Below are positions 29,487-52,464 of a stretch of 64,000 bases of DNA, piece after piece. A program made the position numbers and the translations under genes. The notes beneath the pieces are model-generated. The model was given only the letters and a program-made list of their open reading frames with translations. It made no database searches and was not told where the DNA came from. Origin of the DNA: Weeksellaceae bacterium (GTDB lineage: Bacteria > Bacteroidota > Bacteroidia > Flavobacteriales > Weeksellaceae); assembly GCA_022013695.1 (NCBI GenBank), contig JAKLPS010000008.1, positions 1-64,000 of the forward strand, read 5' to 3'. The stretch's first letter is position 1; the number at the start of each line of letters is the position of its first letter.

Positions 29487-30353
29487 ATGGAAATGAATGT
29501 TTCAAACACAGACGAGCAAGTAGTTGCTAGAAAAAAAGGAGGTCTTAATCCTGCTGTAATTATCCCAATTTTATTAGTGATTGGTGTATTAATCTTTTGG
29601 TTTGTATTGGGTAATCCGTCCAATTTTCAGGAAGATGCGCGGCTTTCCGGCAAATCCTCGGTAGCATTTGCAAATGATATCAAAACGACGGAGTTGCATC
29701 CTCACGGATTAGGCGTTATTTATATGGGAGGAGTTCTTGTTCCTGTTTTGATCACTTTTATGATTATCGTTATCGTATTTGCAATTGAGAGAGCAATTGT
29801 ATTAAACAAAGCTCAAGGAAACGGCAATGTGGATAGCTTTGTTCTAAAAGTTAGAAATTTGCTTAACCACAACAAAGTAGAAGAAGCTTTAGAAGAATGC
29901 GACAGACAGCAAGGTTCGATCGGGAATGTTGTGAAAGAAGGTTTGACAACTTACAAAGCATTGGCAGTAGATACAACGCTGGATAAAGAACAAAAAATGG
30001 CAGGTCTTAACAAAGCCATTGAAGAAGCTACCACTTTGGAAATGCCAATGTTGGAGAAAAATATGAACATCCTTTCCACCTTAGGAACCGTTGCTACCTT
30101 GGTTGCCTTGCTTGGAACCGTATTGGGGATGATCCGTTCATTCCAAGCCTTAGGCCAAGCGGGCGGAACACCGGATGCTGCTGCACTATCTATCGGTATC
30201 TCCGAAGCCTTGATGAACACCGCTTTGGGTATTAGTACCTCTGCAGTTGCAATCATCCTTTATAACTATTTTACTTCCAAAATTGATGGATTGACGTACA
30301 AGATCGATGAGATCTCTATGAGCATCCAACAGTCTTTTGCTCAATTTCATTAA
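29487..30353 (+). CDS. exbB: ExbB/TolQ/MotA proton channel family protein
   Basis: 288 residues. Inner-membrane proton channel that, with ExbD, energises TonB. A TM segment near 23-42 is followed by a periplasmic loop, a TM with MGGVLVPVLITFMIIVIVFAIERAI (about 79-105), a cytoplasmic domain, and the family's hallmark pair of helices: LEKNMNILSTLGTVATLVALLGTVLGMI and ALSIGISEALMNTALGISTSAVAIILYNYF. An N-terminal extension with an extra TM is normal in Bacteroidota ExbB. It is first in an operon with two exbD genes and tonB. Confidence 0.93.
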   Translation: MEMNVSNTDEQVVARKKGGLNPAVIIPILLVIGVLIFWFVLGNPSNFQEDARLSGKSSVAFANDIKTTELHPHGLGVIYMGGVLVPVLITFMIIVIVFAIERAIVLNKAQGNGNVDSFVLKVRNLLNHNKVEEALEECDRQQGSIGNVVKEGLTTYKALAVDTTLDKEQKMAGLNKAIEEATTLEMPMLEKNMNILSTLGTVATLVALLGTVLGMIRSFQALGQAGGTPDAAALSIGISEALMNTALGISTSAVAIILYNYFTSKIDGLTYKIDEISMSIQQSFAQFH

Positions 30354-30424
30354 GAAATTGAGCTTTTTATAAAATGTATTTCTTACATTTTAAATTTTTA
30401 TCAAATAGTTAAATAGACAAAACA

Positions 30425-31030
30425 ATGGCGAGAATTAAACCAAAAAGACACGGGGTAGCGCTGGATATGACAGCAATGTGTGATGTAACTTTCTTACTTC
30501 TTACATTCTTCATTACAACTACCCAGTTCAAAAAGCCCGATGTGGCACAGATAAAACCGCCTTCTTCTATATCAGAAAAATTACTTCCTGATGCCAGTTT
30601 GATGACTGTAAGTGTTACTCAGGATGGTGTTTTCTATTTCCAACCAGTGGAAAACGGCACAGAAAGGATTCAACTTCTGGAAAAAATGGGAGCAAAGTAC
30701 AAAATGACCTTTACAAACCCAGAAAAAGTTGCATTTGTAAAATTAGAAGCCGTAGGCGTGCCGATGGGGCAGTTGAAAAGTTTTTTGAATCTGCCCGAAG
30801 CGCAGCGAAAAACATACAAATCAAAAGAAGGTATTCCGTTGGACAGTACGAACAAACAAGTTATCGATTGGGTACAGCAGAGCCTTGCCGTAAATCCTAA
30901 TTACAAGTTGGCAATCAAAGGTGATGTTACCACTAAGTATCCAAAAGTCAAAACGTTGTTTGAAGGTTTGAGAGATATCGATTTTCTTAAATTTTGGTTG
31001 ATCACATCACAAGAAAGTAAAACAAATTAA
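30425..31030 (+). CDS. exbD: ExbD/TolR family protein, first copy
   Basis: 201 residues. A short cytoplasmic N terminus is followed by one TM helix with LDMTAMCDVTFLLLTFF, whose Asp in MCDV is the conserved proton-carrying residue. A periplasmic domain follows. It is larger than the second ExbD and has an insertion (LNLPEAQRKTYKSKEGIPLDSTNK) in the periplasmic part, as in other flavobacteria where two distinct ExbD paralogues occur together. It is separated from exbB by 71 bases and from the next gene by 11. Confidence 0.92.
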   Translation: MARIKPKRHGVALDMTAMCDVTFLLLTFFITTTQFKKPDVAQIKPPSSISEKLLPDASLMTVSVTQDGVFYFQPVENGTERIQLLEKMGAKYKMTFTNPEKVAFVKLEAVGVPMGQLKSFLNLPEAQRKTYKSKEGIPLDSTNKQVIDWVQQSLAVNPNYKLAIKGDVTTKYPKVKTLFEGLRDIDFLKFWLITSQESKTN

Positions 31031-31041
31031 TTCAACGAGAA

Positions 31042-31584
31042 ATGGCAGAAGTAGCAGTAAAAGAGGATAGTGGCAAAGGCGGCAAGGTTCGCTCGAAGAA
31101 GCACAATCCCCGTGTAGATATGACACCGATGGTTGACTTGAATTTCTTGATGTTGATGTTCTTTATGTTCACCACAACATTCAGCAAACCCAATGTGATG
31201 GATCTCGGTCTTCCGGCAAAGCCGCACGATGAAAAACAAAAACCACAGGATATAGATATAAAATTGAGCAATTCAATTTCTATCATCATAGGTAAAGACA
31301 ACAAAGTTTTTTATCACCAGCAAGATCAGGAAGGACTTAATGATGAAAATTTTTTTGAAACCAGTTTTGACAGAGAAGGAATCAGACAAGTAATCGAGAA
31401 GGCAAAAGCCGCCGCAGTTGATAAAGACAAATTTACAGTAATTATAAAGCCAACGGATGATGCAGTATATAAGAATTTTGTAGATATTTTGGACGAAATG
31501 GAGATTACCAAAAACAAAAGATATGGGGTGACCGATATCAAACCATGGGAGTTGGCTATTTACAAAAGGAAAGTGGGAGAATAG
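31042..31584 (+). CDS. exbD: ExbD/TolR family protein, second copy
   Basis: 180 residues. A basic N terminus is followed by a TM helix with VDMTPMVDLNFLMLMFFMF containing the conserved Asp. The periplasmic domain has IIIGKDNKVFYHQ and FTVIIKPTDDAVYKNFVDILDEM, the TolR/ExbD fold. The short distance to the first exbD (11 bases) indicates coupling. The two paralogues may form a heteromeric ExbD dimer in the channel; that is inferred. Confidence 0.93.
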   Translation: MAEVAVKEDSGKGGKVRSKKHNPRVDMTPMVDLNFLMLMFFMFTTTFSKPNVMDLGLPAKPHDEKQKPQDIDIKLSNSISIIIGKDNKVFYHQQDQEGLNDENFFETSFDREGIRQVIEKAKAAAVDKDKFTVIIKPTDDAVYKNFVDILDEMEITKNKRYGVTDIKPWELAIYKRKVGE

Positions 31585-31624
31585 TAAAGTCTCACTACAA
31601 ATATCATATTTTAAAATATCAAAA

Positions 31625-32443
31625 ATGGCAGACGAAAATTTGAATTACGATCAAACTCTTGATGAGATCGTATTTGAACATAGAAATAAAGCTTACGGAG
31701 CGTATGACCTTAGGAAATCGTATCCCAAGTTGCTCACAAGATCTTTCATCATTGGGACTGTTCTCTTTATTATCCTTGCAGTTTCTCCTCTTATATATCT
31801 CAAGATTCAAGAGATGAATGCTAAAGACAAAGTAGAAGTGGATGCAAAATTGGTCGATATCTTGGAAGAAAAACCCATCATAGAAGAGCCAAAAGAAGAG
31901 GAACCACCGCCGCCACCTCCAAAAGTGGAGCAAAAACAAGAAGTCATACAAAATGTCGTTCCAGAACCTAAGAGAGCTCCGAAGATTGAGACGCCACCAC
32001 CAACAATTACAGAACAATTGAAAACAACAACGGGGCTTAATAATCAGGAAGGCGTTAAGACACCTGCCTATACACCGCCACCACCGCCACCCGGAACTGG
32101 CAAAGTTGTAACTGCAGAAGTAAAGGTGACCAACGAAGTGTACGAATCTGTAGATCAAAATGCAGAATTCCAAGGGGGTATTAACGCCTTTAGAACGAAA
32201 TTCCAGAATAATTTTGATCAAGGAAGCTTGGAAGGTGAAGGAGCTCTTAAAACGGAAATTACTTTTGTTGTAGAAAAAGATGGATCTTTAACTCAAGTAA
32301 AGGCGACAGGATCTAATGCTGATTTCAACAGAGCAGCAGAAGAAACAGTACGGTCGATAAAAACAAAATGGACTCCCGGCAAAGTCAATGGACAACCTGT
32401 AAGATCCAGATTTAGATTCCCTGTTACAATGAATTTCCAATAA
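31625..32443 (+). CDS. tonB: TonB energy transducer
   Basis: 272 residues. The cytoplasmic start with VFEHRNKAYGAYDLRKSYPK is the Bacteroidota TonB signature, followed by one TM (FIIGTVLFIILAVSPLIYL). A Pro/Glu-rich periplasm-spanning linker (EEPPPPPPKVEQ, TPPPPPPGTG) leads to a C-terminal TonB domain (FQGGINAFRTKFQNNF ... EITFVVEKDGSLTQVKATG ... TKWTPGKVNGQPVRSRFRFPVTMNF). It transmits the proton-motive force to outer-membrane TonB-dependent transporters. A terminator follows 30 bases later. Confidence 0.95.
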   Translation: MADENLNYDQTLDEIVFEHRNKAYGAYDLRKSYPKLLTRSFIIGTVLFIILAVSPLIYLKIQEMNAKDKVEVDAKLVDILEEKPIIEEPKEEEPPPPPPKVEQKQEVIQNVVPEPKRAPKIETPPPTITEQLKTTTGLNNQEGVKTPAYTPPPPPPGTGKVVTAEVKVTNEVYESVDQNAEFQGGINAFRTKFQNNFDQGSLEGEGALKTEITFVVEKDGSLTQVKATGSNADFNRAAEETVRSIKTKWTPGKVNGQPVRSRFRFPVTMNFQ

Positions 32444-32473
32444 GGAAAAGACATTGTAAATACATTCATATAA

Positions 32474-32504
32474 AAGAGAAGTTTTCACAACTTCTCTTTT
32501 TTTT
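32474..32504 (+). terminator. Hairpin terminator after tonB
   Basis: AAGAGAAGTT, a short loop and AACTTCTCTT followed by eight T form a 10-bp stem with a T-run, ending the exbB-tonB transcript before the 60-residue membrane protein. Confidence 0.85.
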
Positions 32505-32506
32505 AT

Positions 32507-32514
32507 TAAATTTG
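32507..32514 (+). promoter_or_regulatory. -7 box TAAATTTG beside a start codon
   Basis: A TAnnTTTG box ends four bases before the ATG at 32519, right after the tonB terminator. A transcript from it would be leaderless or nearly so. No -33 TTTG is seen. Confidence 0.4.
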
Positions 32515-32518
32515 CCCT

Positions 32519-32701
32519 ATGTATAAATGGCTTTCTTTAATTGTCGGATTTCTCTACATCGCATTCGGAATCTTTGTGGTAGCTTACCGATACTCGCGTA
32601 TCATAGAATCAAATATTGCATATCCGTTAGGCGGTTTGCTAGTGGTTTATGGTGTTTTCAGATTTGTAAGAGCTATTATAGCGCTACGAAATGATGATTA
32701 A
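32519..32701 (+). CDS. Small membrane protein of the TonB locus
   Basis: 60 residues with two hydrophobic helices (WLSLIVGFLYIAFGIFVVAY and LGGLLVVYGVFRFVRAII) separated by a polar turn. There is no known domain. The stop overlaps the start region of the PstS-like lipoprotein gene by eleven bases, so the two are translated together. It may help anchor or regulate its neighbours; function unknown. Confidence 0.7.
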   Translation: MYKWLSLIVGFLYIAFGIFVVAYRYSRIIESNIAYPLGGLLVVYGVFRFVRAIIALRNDD

Positions 32702-33569
32702 AATGCATAAGCTAATCTTAATTGGCCTGCTTAGCTTCCTTCTTTTTGGTTCTTGTTCCAAGGATATGGCGATCGACAATCCCAACAAAGGCGAAATCAC
32801 CATAGAGGCAGACGAGTCCTTCAAAAGTGTTTCCGAAGCTTTGGTAGAAAGTTATACCACTCTTAATCCACAGACCAAAATTAAGCTGGTTATCAAAAAA
32901 GAGGACCTTGGATTGCTGGATCTTTTGAATAAGAAAGTGCGCGTTATCGTGATGTCCAGAGAGCTTTCCAAAAAAGAAAAAGAAGCCTACGACAAAAAAA
33001 TTGATCTGCCTTGGCTGCCTGCGAAATTTGCAGCAGATGCCGTTCTCTTTGTGGTTCCCAAGGATTCTCCATTAGAAGCCATCGCGATGGAGGAGATTTA
33101 TAGTGAATTGAATTCTGATAAAAAAAGGATGATATTCGATGGTGTCAACTCGAGCAACCTCAACTTTGTGGCTCAGAAATTCAAAAAGAATCCTGCCGAT
33201 TTGAAATTCTCTATCATCAACGGAAACGAAAATGTAGCAGAACAATTGAAAAATTATCCCGACAAAATTGGTGTCATCAGTTATAATACGATCAGCAGAC
33301 CTTTCGGCAAAGACGCTCAAAAACTGAGGAATGAGTTAAAAGTTTTAAACATAATAAAAAATGGTAAAACGTACAATCCCTCCAATGATAATTTGAAAAA
33401 TATGAGTTATCCCTTTACCAGAGTTCTGTATCTCCTGACAAACGAGTCTTATTATGGCCTGGGAAACGGCTTTATTAGGTTCTCTTGCCAGCAAATCGGT
33501 CAGATTATCGTAGAAAAAGAAGGTCTTCAGCCTTATAATATCTTTAACAGAGAAGTTCAGATGCGATAG
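32691..33569 (+). CDS. PstS-like phosphate-binding lipoprotein
   Basis: 292 residues. An N-terminal lipoprotein signal ends LLFGSCSKD, with Cys22 as the probable lipidation site. It is a PstS-family substrate-binding protein: GEITIEADESFKSVSEALVESY, KVRVIVMSRELSKKEKEAYD, ADAVLFVVPKDSPLEAI and SNLNFVAQKF. The STSGGSG-type phosphate loop of a true PstS is not obvious, unlike in the pstS at 51431. It sits downstream of tonB with no ABC permease or ATPase near it, so a transport role through Pst is unlikely; surface or periplasmic sensing in the TonB context is possible. Confidence 0.8.
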   Translation: MMIKMHKLILIGLLSFLLFGSCSKDMAIDNPNKGEITIEADESFKSVSEALVESYTTLNPQTKIKLVIKKEDLGLLDLLNKKVRVIVMSRELSKKEKEAYDKKIDLPWLPAKFAADAVLFVVPKDSPLEAIAMEEIYSELNSDKKRMIFDGVNSSNLNFVAQKFKKNPADLKFSIINGNENVAEQLKNYPDKIGVISYNTISRPFGKDAQKLRNELKVLNIIKNGKTYNPSNDNLKNMSYPFTRVLYLLTNESYYGLGNGFIRFSCQQIGQIIVEKEGLQPYNIFNREVQMR

Positions 33570-33682
33570 GTAATTTTAATATTTATTTAACAGCTTAATT
33601 GAATTTTATTATCTATTTTGGTCTAAATATTGTCAGAAAAACCAAAATTTATAGTTTGGAAATCGTAAAAACAGAGAAAATA

Positions 33683-35326
33683 ATGAATTTATCAAAGAAA
33701 ATTGTTGTTACAGCAGCGGTAGGCTTTTTTACCAGTTTAAGTTTTGCACAGTCGGTGCAAGATGGTATCAACTTGGTGGATAGCCAAAAATATGCAAAAG
33801 CAAAACAAAATTACTCAGACCTTATCACTCAAAATCCTAAAGAAGCAAGCAACTATTTTTATTTAGGAAACACCTATTTGACGCAATTTGTGCCTAATTT
33901 TGCAATGGCTCAGGAAAGTTTCAACAAAGGTCTTGCTGCAGATCCAAAAAGTTATTTGAACCAAATAGGTTTAGCTTCTATCAAATTAGGAAAAGGAGAC
34001 AAATCGGCGATCACAGAAATTCAGCAAATTGTAAAAGATTCCAGAGAAAAAGACGCCGAAGTCCTATTCAGAGCAGGCGAAGCACTCACATTATTCGAGA
34101 AAAATAGTTCCCCAGATCTTGCCATCGTCTATTTGAATAAAGCCATTGAAAAAGCTCAGAAAGCAGGCGTTCCTGCCAATTATTATTATTCGCTGGGCGA
34201 TGCTTACAGGATCAAAAAAGACCCTGGAAATGCAATGACAGCTTACGATAAGGCAGAAGCGGTAGCAAAAAATAAGGCGTCCGTCTTCACAAGAAAAGCA
34301 ACGCTTTGGATTGCGGCACAACAATGGCAACAAGCGAAAACCAATATTGATAAAGCAATAGCCGTGGATCCAACTTATGCGCCAGCTTACAAAGCTTTAG
34401 CAAGTTTTAATATCAAATATCAGAAAAATTCAGCGGCCACTCAGAATTTGTTAGACTATACAAAGTATGCCGATGAGGATCCTTACACGCAGTTAGAAAT
34501 TGCAAAACTGTATTTTACAAATGAAGACTATGCAAATGCAAAAGCCACTTTAGATTCCGTTGAAGGCAAGATTACAGATCCTATCAAAGACAAACTAAGA
34601 GCTTACATCTTGTACAGCGAGGGAAAATATGCGGACGCTCAACAAAGTATGAACTCTTTTTTATCTCAGGCAGACAAATCCAGAGTGCAAGCTTCGGATG
34701 AAGGATTGCAAGGTTTAATCGCAGCGGGACTAGCCAATACTGAGAAAGATGCGGCCAAGAAAGCACAGCTTGAAGCCTTATCCCAACAAAAAATAACCAT
34801 TGCAAAAAATGCAAAAGACGAAACTTTGAATTGGGACGGTGAATTAGCTAAAATTAAAGGCGGCTTGGTAGGAATGTCCACAGATGCAGGCGCTACATCG
34901 CCAGAAATCGAAGCGCTAAAGACAAAATTAGGAGCAAATCCGAAGGATACAGATGCGATTTATAAATTAGCGCAAGCCTATCAGGACGTTAAAAATTGGA
35001 ATGGCGCCATTGCAACCTGGCAGAAGATGATTACCCTGCTTCCAGATTGGGAACCGGCGTATTACAGCCAAGCTTATGCCTATCAGCAGGCTGGCAAGCA
35101 GGATTTAGCATCCGCAGCCTATCAGAAATATGTCGATACCTTGATGGCAAAACCAGTAGCAGATCAGGAAGCGAACAAAGAGACGCTATCCTACGCCTAT
35201 TTTGCGATCGCTTTCATTGCAAAAGATAGTGATAAAGAAAAAGCTAAAGCAATGGTTGCAAAATCTTTGTCGCTGAATCCGACGTACGCAGACGCATTAA
35301 ATTTGCAGAAAAGCCTGAATCAGTAA
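33683..35326 (+). CDS. Secreted TPR-repeat protein
   Basis: 547 residues from the ATG at 33683, where a signal peptide begins (MNLSKKIVVTAAVGFFTSLSFAQ); the longer reading is rejected. The rest is almost wholly tetratricopeptide repeats (ASNYFYLGNTYL, AIVYLNKAIEKAQ, PANYYYSLGDAYRI, APAYKALASFN, DAIYKLAQAYQD, EPAYYSQAYAYQQAG and others). It is periplasmic, and a scaffold role for protein-protein contact is likely. It follows the PstS-like gene by about 110 bases in the TonB locus. A hairpin terminator lies after it. Confidence 0.87.
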   Translation: MNLSKKIVVTAAVGFFTSLSFAQSVQDGINLVDSQKYAKAKQNYSDLITQNPKEASNYFYLGNTYLTQFVPNFAMAQESFNKGLAADPKSYLNQIGLASIKLGKGDKSAITEIQQIVKDSREKDAEVLFRAGEALTLFEKNSSPDLAIVYLNKAIEKAQKAGVPANYYYSLGDAYRIKKDPGNAMTAYDKAEAVAKNKASVFTRKATLWIAAQQWQQAKTNIDKAIAVDPTYAPAYKALASFNIKYQKNSAATQNLLDYTKYADEDPYTQLEIAKLYFTNEDYANAKATLDSVEGKITDPIKDKLRAYILYSEGKYADAQQSMNSFLSQADKSRVQASDEGLQGLIAAGLANTEKDAAKKAQLEALSQQKITIAKNAKDETLNWDGELAKIKGGLVGMSTDAGATSPEIEALKTKLGANPKDTDAIYKLAQAYQDVKNWNGAIATWQKMITLLPDWEPAYYSQAYAYQQAGKQDLASAAYQKYVDTLMAKPVADQEANKETLSYAYFAIAFIAKDSDKEKAKAMVAKSLSLNPTYADALNLQKSLNQ

Positions 35327-35349
35327 TTCGTAAAAAAATCAATCACGAG

Positions 35350-35378
35350 CTTCCCAATTTTTACAATTGGGAAGTTTT
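35350..35378 (+). terminator. Hairpin terminator after the TPR gene
   Basis: CTTCCCAATT and AATTGGGAAG form a perfect 10-bp stem with a five-base loop, followed by TTTT. The right arm overlaps the -33 element of the bshB1 promoter. Confidence 0.8.
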
Positions 35379-48951: not shown

Positions 48952-49698
48952 CTATCCGAAATGCCCACCAATGTAGCCTTTTGTGGTTTCCATCTTAGGA
49001 TTATTGAAGATCTGGCTGGTTTCGCCTTCCTCTATAATTTCGCCGAGATACATAAACACCGTTTTGTCTGCTACGCGCTGCGCTTGCTGCATATTGTGGG
49101 TGACGATTACAATCGTATATTGCTCTTTCAGTTTATGAATTAGATTTTCGATTTTGGAGGTACTTATGGGGTCTAACGCAGAGCACGGCTCGTCCATCAG
49201 GATTACTTCCGGGCGCAGCGCCACGGTTCTGGCAATGCAAAGCCGCTGTTGCTGCCCTCCCGAGAGTCTGGTAGCCGGTTTTTTCAGGTCGTCTTTTACT
49301 TCGTCCCAAAGATAGGCTTCTTCCAAGGCTTTCTGTACCGTAGCCGCATCGGCTGGCAAGTTGTTGATTTTTAATCCATAAGCGATGTTTTCGTAAATGC
49401 TTTTGGGAAAAGGATTAGCTTTTTGAAACACCATTCCTATTCTCCTGCGGACACTGGTCACCTCGATTCCTTTCTGATAAAGATCTTGCCCTTCCAAAGC
49501 AATTTTTCCATCGATTTTGGCATCGGGGTACAAATCGTGCATCCTGTTGAAACAGCGGAGCAGCGTGCTTTTCCCACAGCCCGAAGGCCCTATCAATGCC
49601 GTGACTTGCTTTTCCGGAAATTCAACAGAGATATTTTTTAAAATAAGTTTGTCCCCGAAAGATAGATTCAGGTTTTCCGCAGTTAATTTACTTTTCAT
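48952..49698 (-). CDS. pstB: Phosphate ABC transporter ATP-binding protein
   Basis: 248 residues. Walker A LIGPSGCGKSTLLRCFNRMHDLYP is the PstB form, with VFQKANPFPKSIYENIAYG, the signature RLSGGQQQRLCIARTVA, Walker B VILMDEPCSALDPIST and the switch in VTHNMQQAQRVADKTVFMYLGE. It powers the PstCA permease. Its start overlaps pstA's end by eleven bases (48952-49698 against 49688). phoU, which often follows pstB, is absent here. Confidence 0.97.
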   Translation of the reverse strand: MKSKLTAENLNLSFGDKLILKNISVEFPEKQVTALIGPSGCGKSTLLRCFNRMHDLYPDAKIDGKIALEGQDLYQKGIEVTSVRRRIGMVFQKANPFPKSIYENIAYGLKINNLPADAATVQKALEEAYLWDEVKDDLKKPATRLSGGQQQRLCIARTVALRPEVILMDEPCSALDPISTSKIENLIHKLKEQYTIVIVTHNMQQAQRVADKTVFMYLGEIIEEGETSQIFNNPKMETTKGYIGGHFG

Positions 49699-50545
49699 CT
49701 TTTCTGTATTTATATCGGATATAAAATGCGGTCAAATTCATCAGAAATACCACCACTATCAGCACAAGAGCAGTCCCGTAAGCAATAGGACGAACCTCCT
49801 CGATGGATTGATGCTGGGTGGACAGCATATATAAATGATAAGGCAAAGCCATAAATTCCTGATTGGGCGTACCCAAAGCCGTGGTAATGTAAAATGCGGC
49901 GCCGGTAAAGAGAATGGGTGCCGTTTCTCCGGCAGCCCGAGATAAGGTTAAAACAACACCCGTTAAAATTCCGGACATTGACGAGGGCAGCACCACATCT
50001 CTGATGGACTCGTATTTGGTGGCGCCAACTCCCAAAGCGGCCTCGCGCATACTGGCGGGAATTCTCAGCAAAGCTTCTTCGGTAGTAGTGATGATGTAGG
50101 GGAGCGACAACAAACCAAGGGTTAAACCTGCCGACAAAATAGATGTTCCAAAATGCAAAGCCTGAACGAACAATGCCAATCCAAAAAGCCCGTAAATAAT
50201 GGAAGGAACTCCCGAAAGATTTCGGATAGAAGCACGAATCGTCCTCGTAAGCCAAGTATTTTCGGCATATTCATTGAGGTAAATGGCGCAGCATATTCCA
50301 AAAGGAATGGAAAAAAGTGCCGCGATGAAGGTTAAAACCACCGTTCCGATTATCGGCGTCAGGATCCCGCCTTTCGTCATTCCGTCTGTGGGAAATTGGG
50401 AAATAAAGTCCCAAGAAATCACCGAAATTCCTTTGCTGAAAATGTCGTACAAAATGACGATGAGGAACACACACACCGAGATGGTGCAGAACAGCAAGGT
50501 TCCCCATTCGATTATCGGGGTTATTTTTTTAAGTTTAAGCGGCAT
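49688..50545 (-). CDS. pstA: Phosphate ABC transporter permease PstA
   Basis: 285 residues, start chosen at 50545 (MPLKLKKITPIIEWG) because it gives the smaller overlap with pstC. Six hydrophobic helices. The cytoplasmic coupling loop is EALLRIPASMREAALGVGATKYESIRDVVLPSSMSGILTGVVLTLSRAAGETAPILFTGAAF, which is diagnostic for PstA. With PstC it forms the inner-membrane channel for phosphate. Confidence 0.96.
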   Translation of the reverse strand: MPLKLKKITPIIEWGTLLFCTISVCVFLIVILYDIFSKGISVISWDFISQFPTDGMTKGGILTPIIGTVVLTFIAALFSIPFGICCAIYLNEYAENTWLTRTIRASIRNLSGVPSIIYGLFGLALFVQALHFGTSILSAGLTLGLLSLPYIITTTEEALLRIPASMREAALGVGATKYESIRDVVLPSSMSGILTGVVLTLSRAAGETAPILFTGAAFYITTALGTPNQEFMALPYHLYMLSTQHQSIEEVRPIAYGTALVLIVVVFLMNLTAFYIRYKYRKDEK

Positions 50546-51425
50546 GGAATTTTCTGAATTTGTTAATAAAATATTCACCCATCAAATTGGCAATCAAGGT
50601 CATAAAAAACAGAACGATGGCAATGGCGAACAGCGCGTAGTAATGGGTGGTTTGATAAGGAACTTCGCCCATCTCGATGGCAATTGTGGCAGTAATCGTT
50701 TTTACAGAATCAAAAAATCCTTTCGGAAAAATGGCGGCATTACCCGTTGCCATCAGGACAGTCATCGTTTCGCCAATAGCCCTGCCCAGTCCCAGCATAA
50801 TGGCCGCGATAATCCCTGGACTTGCTGCCGGAATGGTGACTTTTCTCAAAGTCTGCCACCTGGAAGCTCCCAAAGCATAACTCGCTTCGCGATAGGTTTG
50901 CGGTACCGAATTGATGGCATCTTCCGAAATGGTAATAATCGTAGGCAAAGCCATAATTGCCAAAAGAATCGCGCCGTTCAGCGCATTTAAACCGTTGGGC
51001 AAATTGCTCATTTGGGCAATGTGCGGTCCCAAAAGAACTATTCCCAAAAATCCGATGACCACCGATGGCACGGCAGCCAGCATCTCGATGGCAGGTTTCA
51101 AAAATGCCTTCAATTTCGGACTGGCATATTCTGATATAAAAGCGGCAGTTCCTATTCCCAAAGGAATGGCAATTAGCATCGCACCGAAGGAAACCAAGGT
51201 GGTGCTAGCAATGAGGGGCAACAAGCCGTAAACGGGTGTCGGAGCTGTGGGATTCCATTCCATTCCCGTGATAAAGTCCAAAGGAGACACTTTGAAAAAG
51301 AATGAAAGTGAGTTGTACAAAAGCATAAAAAAAATGCCTCCCAGCAAAGCCAAAACCAGCAAACCCGTAGATTTGAAGAGGATTTTGGCCACCTTATCGA
51401 TGACGATTCTTTTTTTGTATTGCAT
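50535..51425 (-). CDS. pstC: Phosphate ABC transporter permease PstC
   Basis: 296 residues. TM helices run from about 20 onwards. The coupling loop is NSVPQTYREASYALGASRWQTLRKVTIPAASPGIIAAIMLGLGRAIGETMTVLMATGN, typical of PstC, and GIGTAAFISEYASPKLKAFLKPAIEMLAAVPSVVIGF is the other conserved block. It overlaps pstA by eleven bases and follows pstS by five, so the four pst genes form one operon. Confidence 0.96.
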   Translation of the reverse strand: MQYKKRIVIDKVAKILFKSTGLLVLALLGGIFFMLLYNSLSFFFKVSPLDFITGMEWNPTAPTPVYGLLPLIASTTLVSFGAMLIAIPLGIGTAAFISEYASPKLKAFLKPAIEMLAAVPSVVIGFLGIVLLGPHIAQMSNLPNGLNALNGAILLAIMALPTIITISEDAINSVPQTYREASYALGASRWQTLRKVTIPAASPGIIAAIMLGLGRAIGETMTVLMATGNAAIFPKGFFDSVKTITATIAIEMGEVPYQTTHYYALFAIAIVLFFMTLIANLMGEYFINKFRKFHAA

Positions 51426-51430
51426 ACGAT

Positions 51431-52288
51431 TTAATTGATGAGATAATATCCTGAATTTTCAATAATATGCCGCCCCATTCCTTTGGTTTCAAAATCGATA
51501 AAGGGTTTTACCTTTTCCCAAGATTCAAAGGGAATAAACTGATACAAAGGCCGTTGGAAAAAGTATTTTCTATTTTTTATAGACTCCGGATTCAGAGGAG
51601 AAACTGCGACAGCGCTGGAGTTGGCTTTGATTTTCAACACTTTTATGCCTTTATTTTGGTGCGGATTTTTGGAAATATATCCGGCGCCCACATATCCGAT
51701 GCCCGATTTATCAATCTTAATCCCTTCCAGAATTTGAGCATTTCCCGTCATTTCTTTGGCTTTCGGGCTGTATTCAATTCCTAATTTTTTCTTGATGAAT
51801 GAGTGCGTGCCAGAGCTGCTTTGCCTGCCGTATATATTAATCGGCAAATCCAATCCTGAAACCGATTTCCACGTCTGGATCTTCCCACTCATAATTTCGC
51901 TCAAAGTCTGTACATCTATTTCCTCCATCGGGTTGTCTTCGTGAACCACGAATGCCGTGGCATCCTCAGCAAAAACCACGGTTTTCAGTTCGATTTTTTT
52001 ATCCTTAAACATCCTTTCTTCCTCATCGGTCAATGGTCGAGATGAGTTGGCAATGTCGGCTTGTCCGTTCAAAAGAGAAGTGATTCCCAAGCCAGAGCCG
52101 CCGCCTGAAACGGAAATGCTGTAGTGTTGATTGGTTTTATAAAACTGTTCGGCCAAGTTGACCGCCAAGTTCACTTCCGTATCCGAGCCTTTTATTTTAA
52201 TCGTTTTATCACCCTGATTACAAGCGTACAAAAGGACAAAACTGACCAGCAGTAAGAGCAAATTAATTTGATTTCTATGGAATTTCAT
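51431..52288 (-). CDS. pstS: Phosphate-binding lipoprotein PstS
   Basis: 285 residues from the ATG at 52288, a lipoprotein signal ending LLYACNQGD with Cys23 for lipidation. Phosphate-binding motifs are IKGSDTEVNLAVNLAEQF, SVSGGGSGLGITSLLNGQADIANSSRPL (the Ser/Gly-rich phosphate loop) and GRQSSSGTHSFIKKKLG. It binds phosphate in the periplasm for PstCAB. On the minus strand TACATTTG at 52295-52302 is a -7 box that ends six bases before the ATG, so the transcript could be almost leaderless. No Pho-box-like pair was identified. Confidence 0.94.
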   Translation of the reverse strand: MKFHRNQINLLLLLVSFVLLYACNQGDKTIKIKGSDTEVNLAVNLAEQFYKTNQHYSISVSGGGSGLGITSLLNGQADIANSSRPLTDEEERMFKDKKIELKTVVFAEDATAFVVHEDNPMEEIDVQTLSEIMSGKIQTWKSVSGLDLPINIYGRQSSSGTHSFIKKKLGIEYSPKAKEMTGNAQILEGIKIDKSGIGYVGAGYISKNPHQNKGIKVLKIKANSSAVAVSPLNPESIKNRKYFFQRPLYQFIPFESWEKVKPFIDFETKGMGRHIIENSGYYLIN

Positions 52289-52464
52289 CTCTTTCAAATG
52301 TAATCTCTTCAAGTGAATTTTTTTTAAAATACACATTAAGATTCAGTTAATTATATTGGCCTATCCTATAAATTAGATAACCAAGATATTTTGATAAGAT
52401 AGCAAAGTAATTTGTTCTTTATTGATTTAGGTGTTTTTTACAAGAATAATATAGGCGGATACTC

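Follow-up and report, generated by a model that had tools for sequence, protein, structure and literature searches.

A conserved three-protein module beside the ExbB-ExbD-ExbD-TonB motor of Bacteroidota, including a PstS-fold lipoprotein that is probably not a phosphate receptor

The DNA stretch analysed here, called the window throughout, comprises positions 1 to 64,000 (64,000 nucleotides) of contig JAKLPS010000008.1 of a Weeksellaceae bacterium (assembly GCA_022013695.1), and between positions 29,487 and 35,326 its forward strand carries seven consecutive genes. The first four encode a Ton system, namely ExbB, the proton channel of the Ton motor (288 amino acids, 29487-30353; PF01618, 102 bits), two copies of ExbD with 201 and 180 amino acids (30425-31030 and 31042-31584; PF02472, 57.3 and 75.4 bits) and TonB (272 amino acids, 31625-32443; PF03544, 35.3 bits), all in one operon and all above the Pfam cut-offs. 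Behind a terminator-like hairpin with a 12-pair stem and a T-run (32472-32500) follow a small membrane protein of 60 amino acids, seen as an open reading frame (ORF) with two hydrophobic stretches (32519-32701), a PstS-fold lipoprotein of 292 amino acids with the lipobox cysteine at position 22 (32691-33569; PBP_like_2, PF12849, 80.7 bits, E 2e-22), and a secreted tetratricopeptide repeat (TPR) protein of approximately 547 amino acids with TPR families in Pfam (33683-35326), for which the ATG preceding the signal peptide was chosen as start. The genes of the small protein and the lipoprotein overlap by 11 bp. This arrangement had already been described in an initial annotation of the window, and the Pfam matches, the ORFs and the hairpin bear it out. 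With a confidence a little above even, we propose that the small protein, the lipoprotein and the TPR protein form an accessory module of ancient origin for the ExbB-ExbD-ExbD-TonB motor of Bacteroidota, one that would connect TonB to its clients or gate their contact.

The order of the seven genes is kept phylum-wide. Searches with the lipoprotein gave matches at E<=1e-5 in 120 of 198 class genomes and in 30 of the 148 genomes of the order sample. The 40 loci fetched were selected by lipoprotein matches and are thus no measure of how frequently the module lies beside a motor; their ORF starts were set mechanically, and the profiles used to call gene order were built from these same loci. ExbB, ExbD, ExbD, TonB, small protein, lipoprotein and TPR protein follow each other in this order in 34/40 of them, two further loci (L065, L068) have the complete order minus a recognised small gene, and in the remaining four (L048, L051, L070, L071) no ExbB is in reach. 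The outer neighbours changed while the module stayed, leuS being found upstream in 9/40 and bshB1 downstream in 7/40 loci, all in the window's family. A scan of genome contigs, for which relatives from elsewhere in the class served as queries, gave 378 loci, of which the best 80 were kept; most are from metagenome-assembled genomes, and the named ones include Pontibacter, Solitalea and Botryobacter. In these best 80 of 378 loci, the genes from ExbB through the TPR protein stand in order in 59, and a run beginning only with ExbD or TonB was found in 10. Seven of the 80 show no more than parts of the set of small protein, lipoprotein and TPR genes (L075, L088, L092, L094, L100, L106, L122), several of them at a contig end, and in four (L135, L139, L142, L148) the three-gene block sits upstream of ExbB and not downstream of TonB. 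In L108, L111, L116 and other Pontibacter loci two consecutive ORFs of the operon match the TonB profile, and two TonB matches occur in at least 16 of the best 80 loci.

In a phylum sample of 247 genomes, which includes class members, 64 had a lipoprotein match at E<=1e-40, and 29 of these belong to other classes. From these 29 genomes 20 loci were fetched, of which 13 carry all seven genes in order, one the part from TonB to the TPR protein and two the three module genes; the other four (L222, L224, L229, L230) are not module-like. In three of the latter (L222, L224, L229) two lipoprotein-like genes of this superfamily sit side by side and ExbB is absent from the vicinity; these genes fall outside the module clade in the tree described below. 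The gene order that the initial annotation had suggested to follow in Flavobacteriia hence extends to other classes of the phylum.

Presence and absence of the lipoprotein and of this type of ExbB are coupled, also where their genes are unlinked. The 198 class genomes were searched with a lipoprotein profile and with a profile of this operon's ExbB, and the presence cut-offs (lipoprotein E<=1e-45, ExbB E<=1e-60) were fixed after a score gap had been seen in the class. There, the lipoprotein scores are bimodal (>=165 bits versus <=135 bits), whereas in other classes they run from 217 to 144 bits without such a gap. Both proteins were found in 118 genomes, only the lipoprotein in one, only ExbB in four and neither in 75 (phi 0.947), numbers that count related genomes and not independent events; the control protein BshB1 gave a phi of 0.147 with the same ExbB. 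The single lipoprotein-only genome (G089) is fragmented, and the ExbB-only genomes are three members of family f6 (G051, G088, G121) together with G057, whose assembly interrupts the exbD genes. Of 66 families, 41 include at least one genome with both proteins, 24 consist entirely of genomes with neither, and nine mix both kinds. In the order sample, where the lipoprotein was searched with one protein and ExbB with a profile, 29 genomes have both, four only ExbB (family f71) and one only the lipoprotein (G236).

The two genes lie within 10 kb of each other in 77/118 genomes. In the other 41 they are unlinked, 37 times on different contigs, for some of which broken assemblies may be the cause, and four times more than 10 kb apart on one contig (G035, G110, G082, G027). 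For 12 of the 41 genomes both sides were fetched (G001, G035, G042, G047, G069, G082, G104, G109, G110, G162, G163, G164), and in 12/12 the split is real, i.e. the motor locus has no adjoining lipoprotein gene and the lipoprotein is encoded elsewhere. The TPR gene adjoins the lipoprotein gene in 11/12 of these genomes, and in two (G047, G110) a TonB gene remains with the module. That the two are present together even where they are unlinked is the strongest indication of module and motor working together. A chance neighbourhood is rejected by the conserved order in 34/40, 59/80 and 13/20 loci and by the co-occurrence, and the free variation of neighbours that would have spoken against the initial annotation was not found; its idea that the Ton system recruited the lipoprotein has good genomic support. 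BshB1 is rejected as a module member, since among the 40 loci its gene neighbours the module in no family but that of the window and its phi value is low.

The AlphaFold2 model of the lipoprotein (46 sequences, pLDDT 91.3) has a PstS-type periplasmic binding fold, with a Foldseek E-value of 1.7e-18 to 4omb and a VIA-align Z of 24.2 to 1twy (rmsd 2.0 over 226 residues). The NCBI PstS model TIGR02136 gives it 49.6 bits at a cut-off of 206.6; the window's pst-linked PstS, with 179.8 bits, stays below the cut-off as well. In the window and in 34/40 loci TonB genes and not pstCAB adjoin the lipoprotein gene, as had been noted for the window before. One locus from another class forms an exception (L221, 769-5700), in which two PstC-like genes and a PstB-like gene lie directly upstream of TonB, small protein, lipoprotein and TPR protein.

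In PstS proteins, the loops GSxT, GGGSG, SR and R..SGT bind phosphate. These loops were compared in 24 PstS and 88 module proteins, the latter comprising the window, all 40 loci, 20 lipoprotein-side loci and every third of the 80 loci (27/80). For the PstS set, 20 loci of lower-scoring relatives were fetched; 13 contain PstC- and PstB-like genes and one (L203) PstC and PstA, whereas six (L196, L198, L199, L201, L204, L211) show no Pst partner within the stretch, and the 24 include six proteins from such loci without a visible partner. The cleft was read from the sequence alignment and not measured in the model. Three of the four loops are changed in the module lipoproteins. The GS[D]T loop, with its serine in 24/24 and its threonine in 23/24 PstS proteins, is replaced by D-E-S (D41 86/88, E42 72/88, S43 64/88), GGGSG by YK.E (E71 85/88) and R..SSGT by FD...S (F149 81/88, D150 83/88, S154 84/88). 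Only the SR-loop arginine is retained (R90, 85/88). The initial annotation had found the phosphate loop not evident, which agrees with both the loop comparison and the low TIGR02136 score, and a site identical to that of PstS, which would have contradicted it, is not what the alignment gives.

Among 16 module members from other classes, D41 was found in 12, E42 in 13, R90 in 15 and S154 in 13; at site 150, none of them has the arginine of PstS. Going by the alignment, the phosphate loops are absent throughout, and the full acidic set is a property of the class and its nearest relatives, in which it is held constant rather than decaying. In a maximum-likelihood tree of 135 sequences the 24 PstS proteins are split from the rest with a support of 0.998 and the 104 module members with 0.923. 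Because the loops differ and the clade is apart from PstS, the lipoprotein is probably not a phosphate receptor. Its acidic residues and its one arginine would fit a ligand group of the amino-acid or peptide kind, or else a cation. Three genomes of family f40 (G039, G079, G113) have eight matches each to the lipoprotein profile (E<=1e-8), where listed mostly in the PstS range. The linker from the lipobox cysteine to D41 has 15 to 48 residues with a median of 22. An acidic pair directly after this cysteine is the motif for surface export of lipoproteins; it was found in 5/87, and surface export on this basis is unsupported.

The small protein has no Pfam family above cut-off in the window copy and four relatives, and a G(x5)Y(x3)R pattern is almost invariant among 22 aligned copies. 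The TPR protein is modelled as an all-helical solenoid of 30 helices (pLDDT 89.7), and its structure matches are general TPR proteins that are uninformative on partners. A second terminator-like hairpin on the forward strand (35347-35377) lies 3' of the module, and bshB1 is the next gene downstream of it (TIGR04001, 301.5 bits). The window also contains the complete pstSCAB set that had been reported at 49-52 kb; it lies at 48952-52336 on the strand opposite to the Ton locus, with PstC, PstA and PstB recognised via the Pfam ABC-transporter families. The source genome (2.6 Mb, 33 contigs) encodes two PBP_like_2 proteins, both inside the window, two ExbB-family proteins and two proteins that match TonB_C. 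The second ExbB locus (L234, G000:C23:24313-33675) has no such module within its 9.4 kb; its ExbB-family gene is flanked by two ORFs of TonB-type appearance without Pfam match.

For the proposed accessory module, a mechanism can be sketched as follows. The lipoprotein would face the periplasm, where its altered acidic cleft may bind a ligand other than phosphate. This could be a cation, a group of the peptide or amino-acid type, or a stretch of a partner protein. The TPR solenoid could connect the lipoprotein with the motor or with clients in the outer membrane, the small protein may provide the inner-membrane contact, and the three together would favour or gate the engagement of TonB with its numerous transporters. 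A contact of the lipoprotein with TonB or ExbD, the ligand and a regulatory role are inferred parts of this sketch. In a broader version, which we regard as speculative and rather improbable, the Ton motor of Bacteroidota would be a seven-part machine, in which the binding protein with the rebuilt site, the TPR solenoid and the two-helix membrane protein form an ancestral unit for coupling TonB to the outer membrane, maybe doing the Ton and the Tol-Pal jobs in one.

Several points weigh against the proposal of an accessory module. We know of no interaction, localisation or mutant for the small protein, the lipoprotein or the TPR protein. E71 and D150 occur in just 3/16 other-class members each, so that the acidic set is not universal, and the genome tallies behind the co-occurrence are, as stated above, of related genomes rather than of independent events. 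The three genomes of family f6 (L176-L178) have the four motor genes and no lipoprotein match at the cut-off, the four genomes of family f71 have this ExbB without a lipoprotein match, and the lipoprotein gene has no adjoining TPR gene in L154 (f42), L167 and L070 (f44) and L163 (f66), a count from which L166 and L171 were left out since they end shortly after the lipoprotein gene. Hence, there is no strict requirement for the module, and its parts are unequally tied. A 176-amino-acid lipoprotein-like ORF after TonB in one f6 locus (L178, 7799-8329; 23 bits with the lipoprotein profile) is perhaps a remnant or a diverged copy, and an f71 locus (L180) kept a small-like gene. Furthermore, the gap between tonB and the small gene carries a hairpin with a T-run in 9/9 fetched loci of the window's family (L032-L040), and there the motor half and the module half look, from these hairpins, to be transcribed at least partly apart. 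The two genes stay adjacent in this family although the hairpin is kept between them; in 6/7 loci of f2 g3, tonB shares one base with the small gene. Finally, single tonB mutants of Riemerella anatipestifer grew without a strong defect on hemin plates or iron-depleted plates (PMC4446302).

Other explanations have to be weighed against the same evidence. That the lipoprotein is still a receptor for phosphate, or a similar oxyanion, which has lost its permease would fit its PstS fold, its database family and the kept SR-loop arginine. However, the replacement of S by D41, of T by S43, of GGGS by YK.E71 and of R by D150, the lack of the PstS arginine at site 150 in all 16 other-class module loci, the separate, highly supported clade and the complete pstSCAB elsewhere in the window make this extremely improbable; loop comparison and tree together render a phosphate-binding reading unlikely. 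We consider it very unlikely, too, that the genes are merely together by descent or shared expression without a joint function. Related genomes share history, raw genome counts underlie the tallies, and the halves look partly separately transcribed in the window's family, all of which would speak for such hitch-hiking, but it would not lead us to expect that leuS and bshB1 were exchanged around a module that stayed, that 41/118 genomes retain both halves unlinked or more than 10 kb apart, or that nine families contain both- and neither-genomes at a bshB1 control value far below that of the lipoprotein.

Two functional alternatives deserve more attention. According to the initial annotation, the lipoprotein may have been recruited to sense or regulate energised transport across the outer membrane; as a ligand sensor it would bind a small molecule in the periplasm and tune the Ton motor. 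The PstS-type fold, the conserved changed cleft in the class and the coupling of the lipoprotein to the motor are in line with such a role, but no ligand is known, a protein segment would suit the fold just as well, Pfam found no regulator domain in the module, and E71 and D150 are not maintained in other classes; we judge this sensor unlikely. A Tol-Pal-like role was considered because Bacteroidetes are reported to be without an identifiable tol-pal locus and the gene plan is similar. Here, the seven genes would form a unit for envelope tethering and division, in which the lipoprotein replaces TolB/Pal and the TPR protein replaces CpoB of the tolQ-tolR-tolA-tolB-pal-cpoB order. A review describes the Tol-Pal plan as motor, transducer, lipoprotein and a TPR protein encoded last (PMC7391070), which matches the locus, and another paper states that no tol-pal loci are identifiable in Bacteroidetes (PMC12204202). 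Moreover, ExbB scores 89.5 bits with the TolQ and 61.6 bits with the ExbB model, and TonB 23.1 bits with the TolA and 19.8 bits with the TonB_Cterm model, although all these values are below cut-off. Against this role, a Pfam search at E 0.1, which covered the three module proteins only, found neither the TolB propeller nor the OmpA-like domain of Pal, the TPR protein is far bigger than CpoB with its three TPRs (PMC7391070), and tonB2 of R. anatipestifer is deletable and acts in hemin and iron uptake (PMC4446302). We therefore hold a Tol-Pal-like unit to be unlikely as well, and return to the accessory module of the Ton motor as the explanation we prefer.

What is new here is a Ton system with three probable and unstudied parts, the ExbB-ExbD-TonB motor itself being already known. 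Bacteroidota import glycans, heme and vitamin B12 via TonB, yet their Ton system has been treated as the E. coli set. According to a review, Bacteroides fragilis has six TonB proteins, of which only TonB3 serves many of these imports. The module would offer a way to approach the question of how a single TonB can work for numerous receptors. The database name of the lipoprotein, part of a phosphate transporter, is probably a misleading annotation. Full-text searches of open-licence papers gave no description of what the module does; within what these searches brought up, only the R. anatipestifer paper (PMC4446302) mentions the downstream gene.

Compared with known systems, the lipoprotein shares with PstS the fold, the length and the C-terminal motif YP..R...GQ....G..P, and differs from it in the phosphate loops, the clade, the TIGR02136 score and the partners, no PstCAB being encoded beside it in the window. 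The Tol-Pal-CpoB system likewise has the genes for a motor, a transducer, a lipoprotein and a TPR protein in a single run; in contrast to it, the module has no TolB or Pal domain and a much longer TPR protein. The TonB2 system of Vibrio (TtpB2-TtpC2-ExbB2-ExbD2-TonB2-TtpD2) resembles the locus in having extra proteins in a tonB operon with a TPR protein encoded last. In Vibrio vulnificus this protein, TtpD2, is essential for TonB2 transport (PMC6957404). It has 425 amino acids, and its likeness to the window's TPR protein lies in the operon plan only. Different from Vibrio are the second ExbD, the 60-amino-acid membrane protein and the PstS-fold lipoprotein, and by gene content, without a search with TtpB/TtpC models, no TtpB or TtpC gene, and no motor gene beyond the four named, lies between leuS and bshB1.

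A further counterpart is exbB2-exbD21-exbD22-tonB2 of R. anatipestifer (PMC4446302). Its genes stand in the same order, leuS precedes them, and a gene named "phosphate ABC transporter substrate-binding" comes after. Judged by this described order, it is probably the same locus as that of the window. The available part of the paper covers the four motor genes only and gives no function for the downstream genes. A TPR gene from a hemolysis screen, Riean_0317, could not be tied to this operon. Disruption of tonB2 strongly lowered hemin uptake, and ExbBDD-TonB2 failed to restore function in E. coli, for which the authors gave the low TonB identity as reason (PMC4446302). A conserved extra unit such as the module described here could help to explain this failure.

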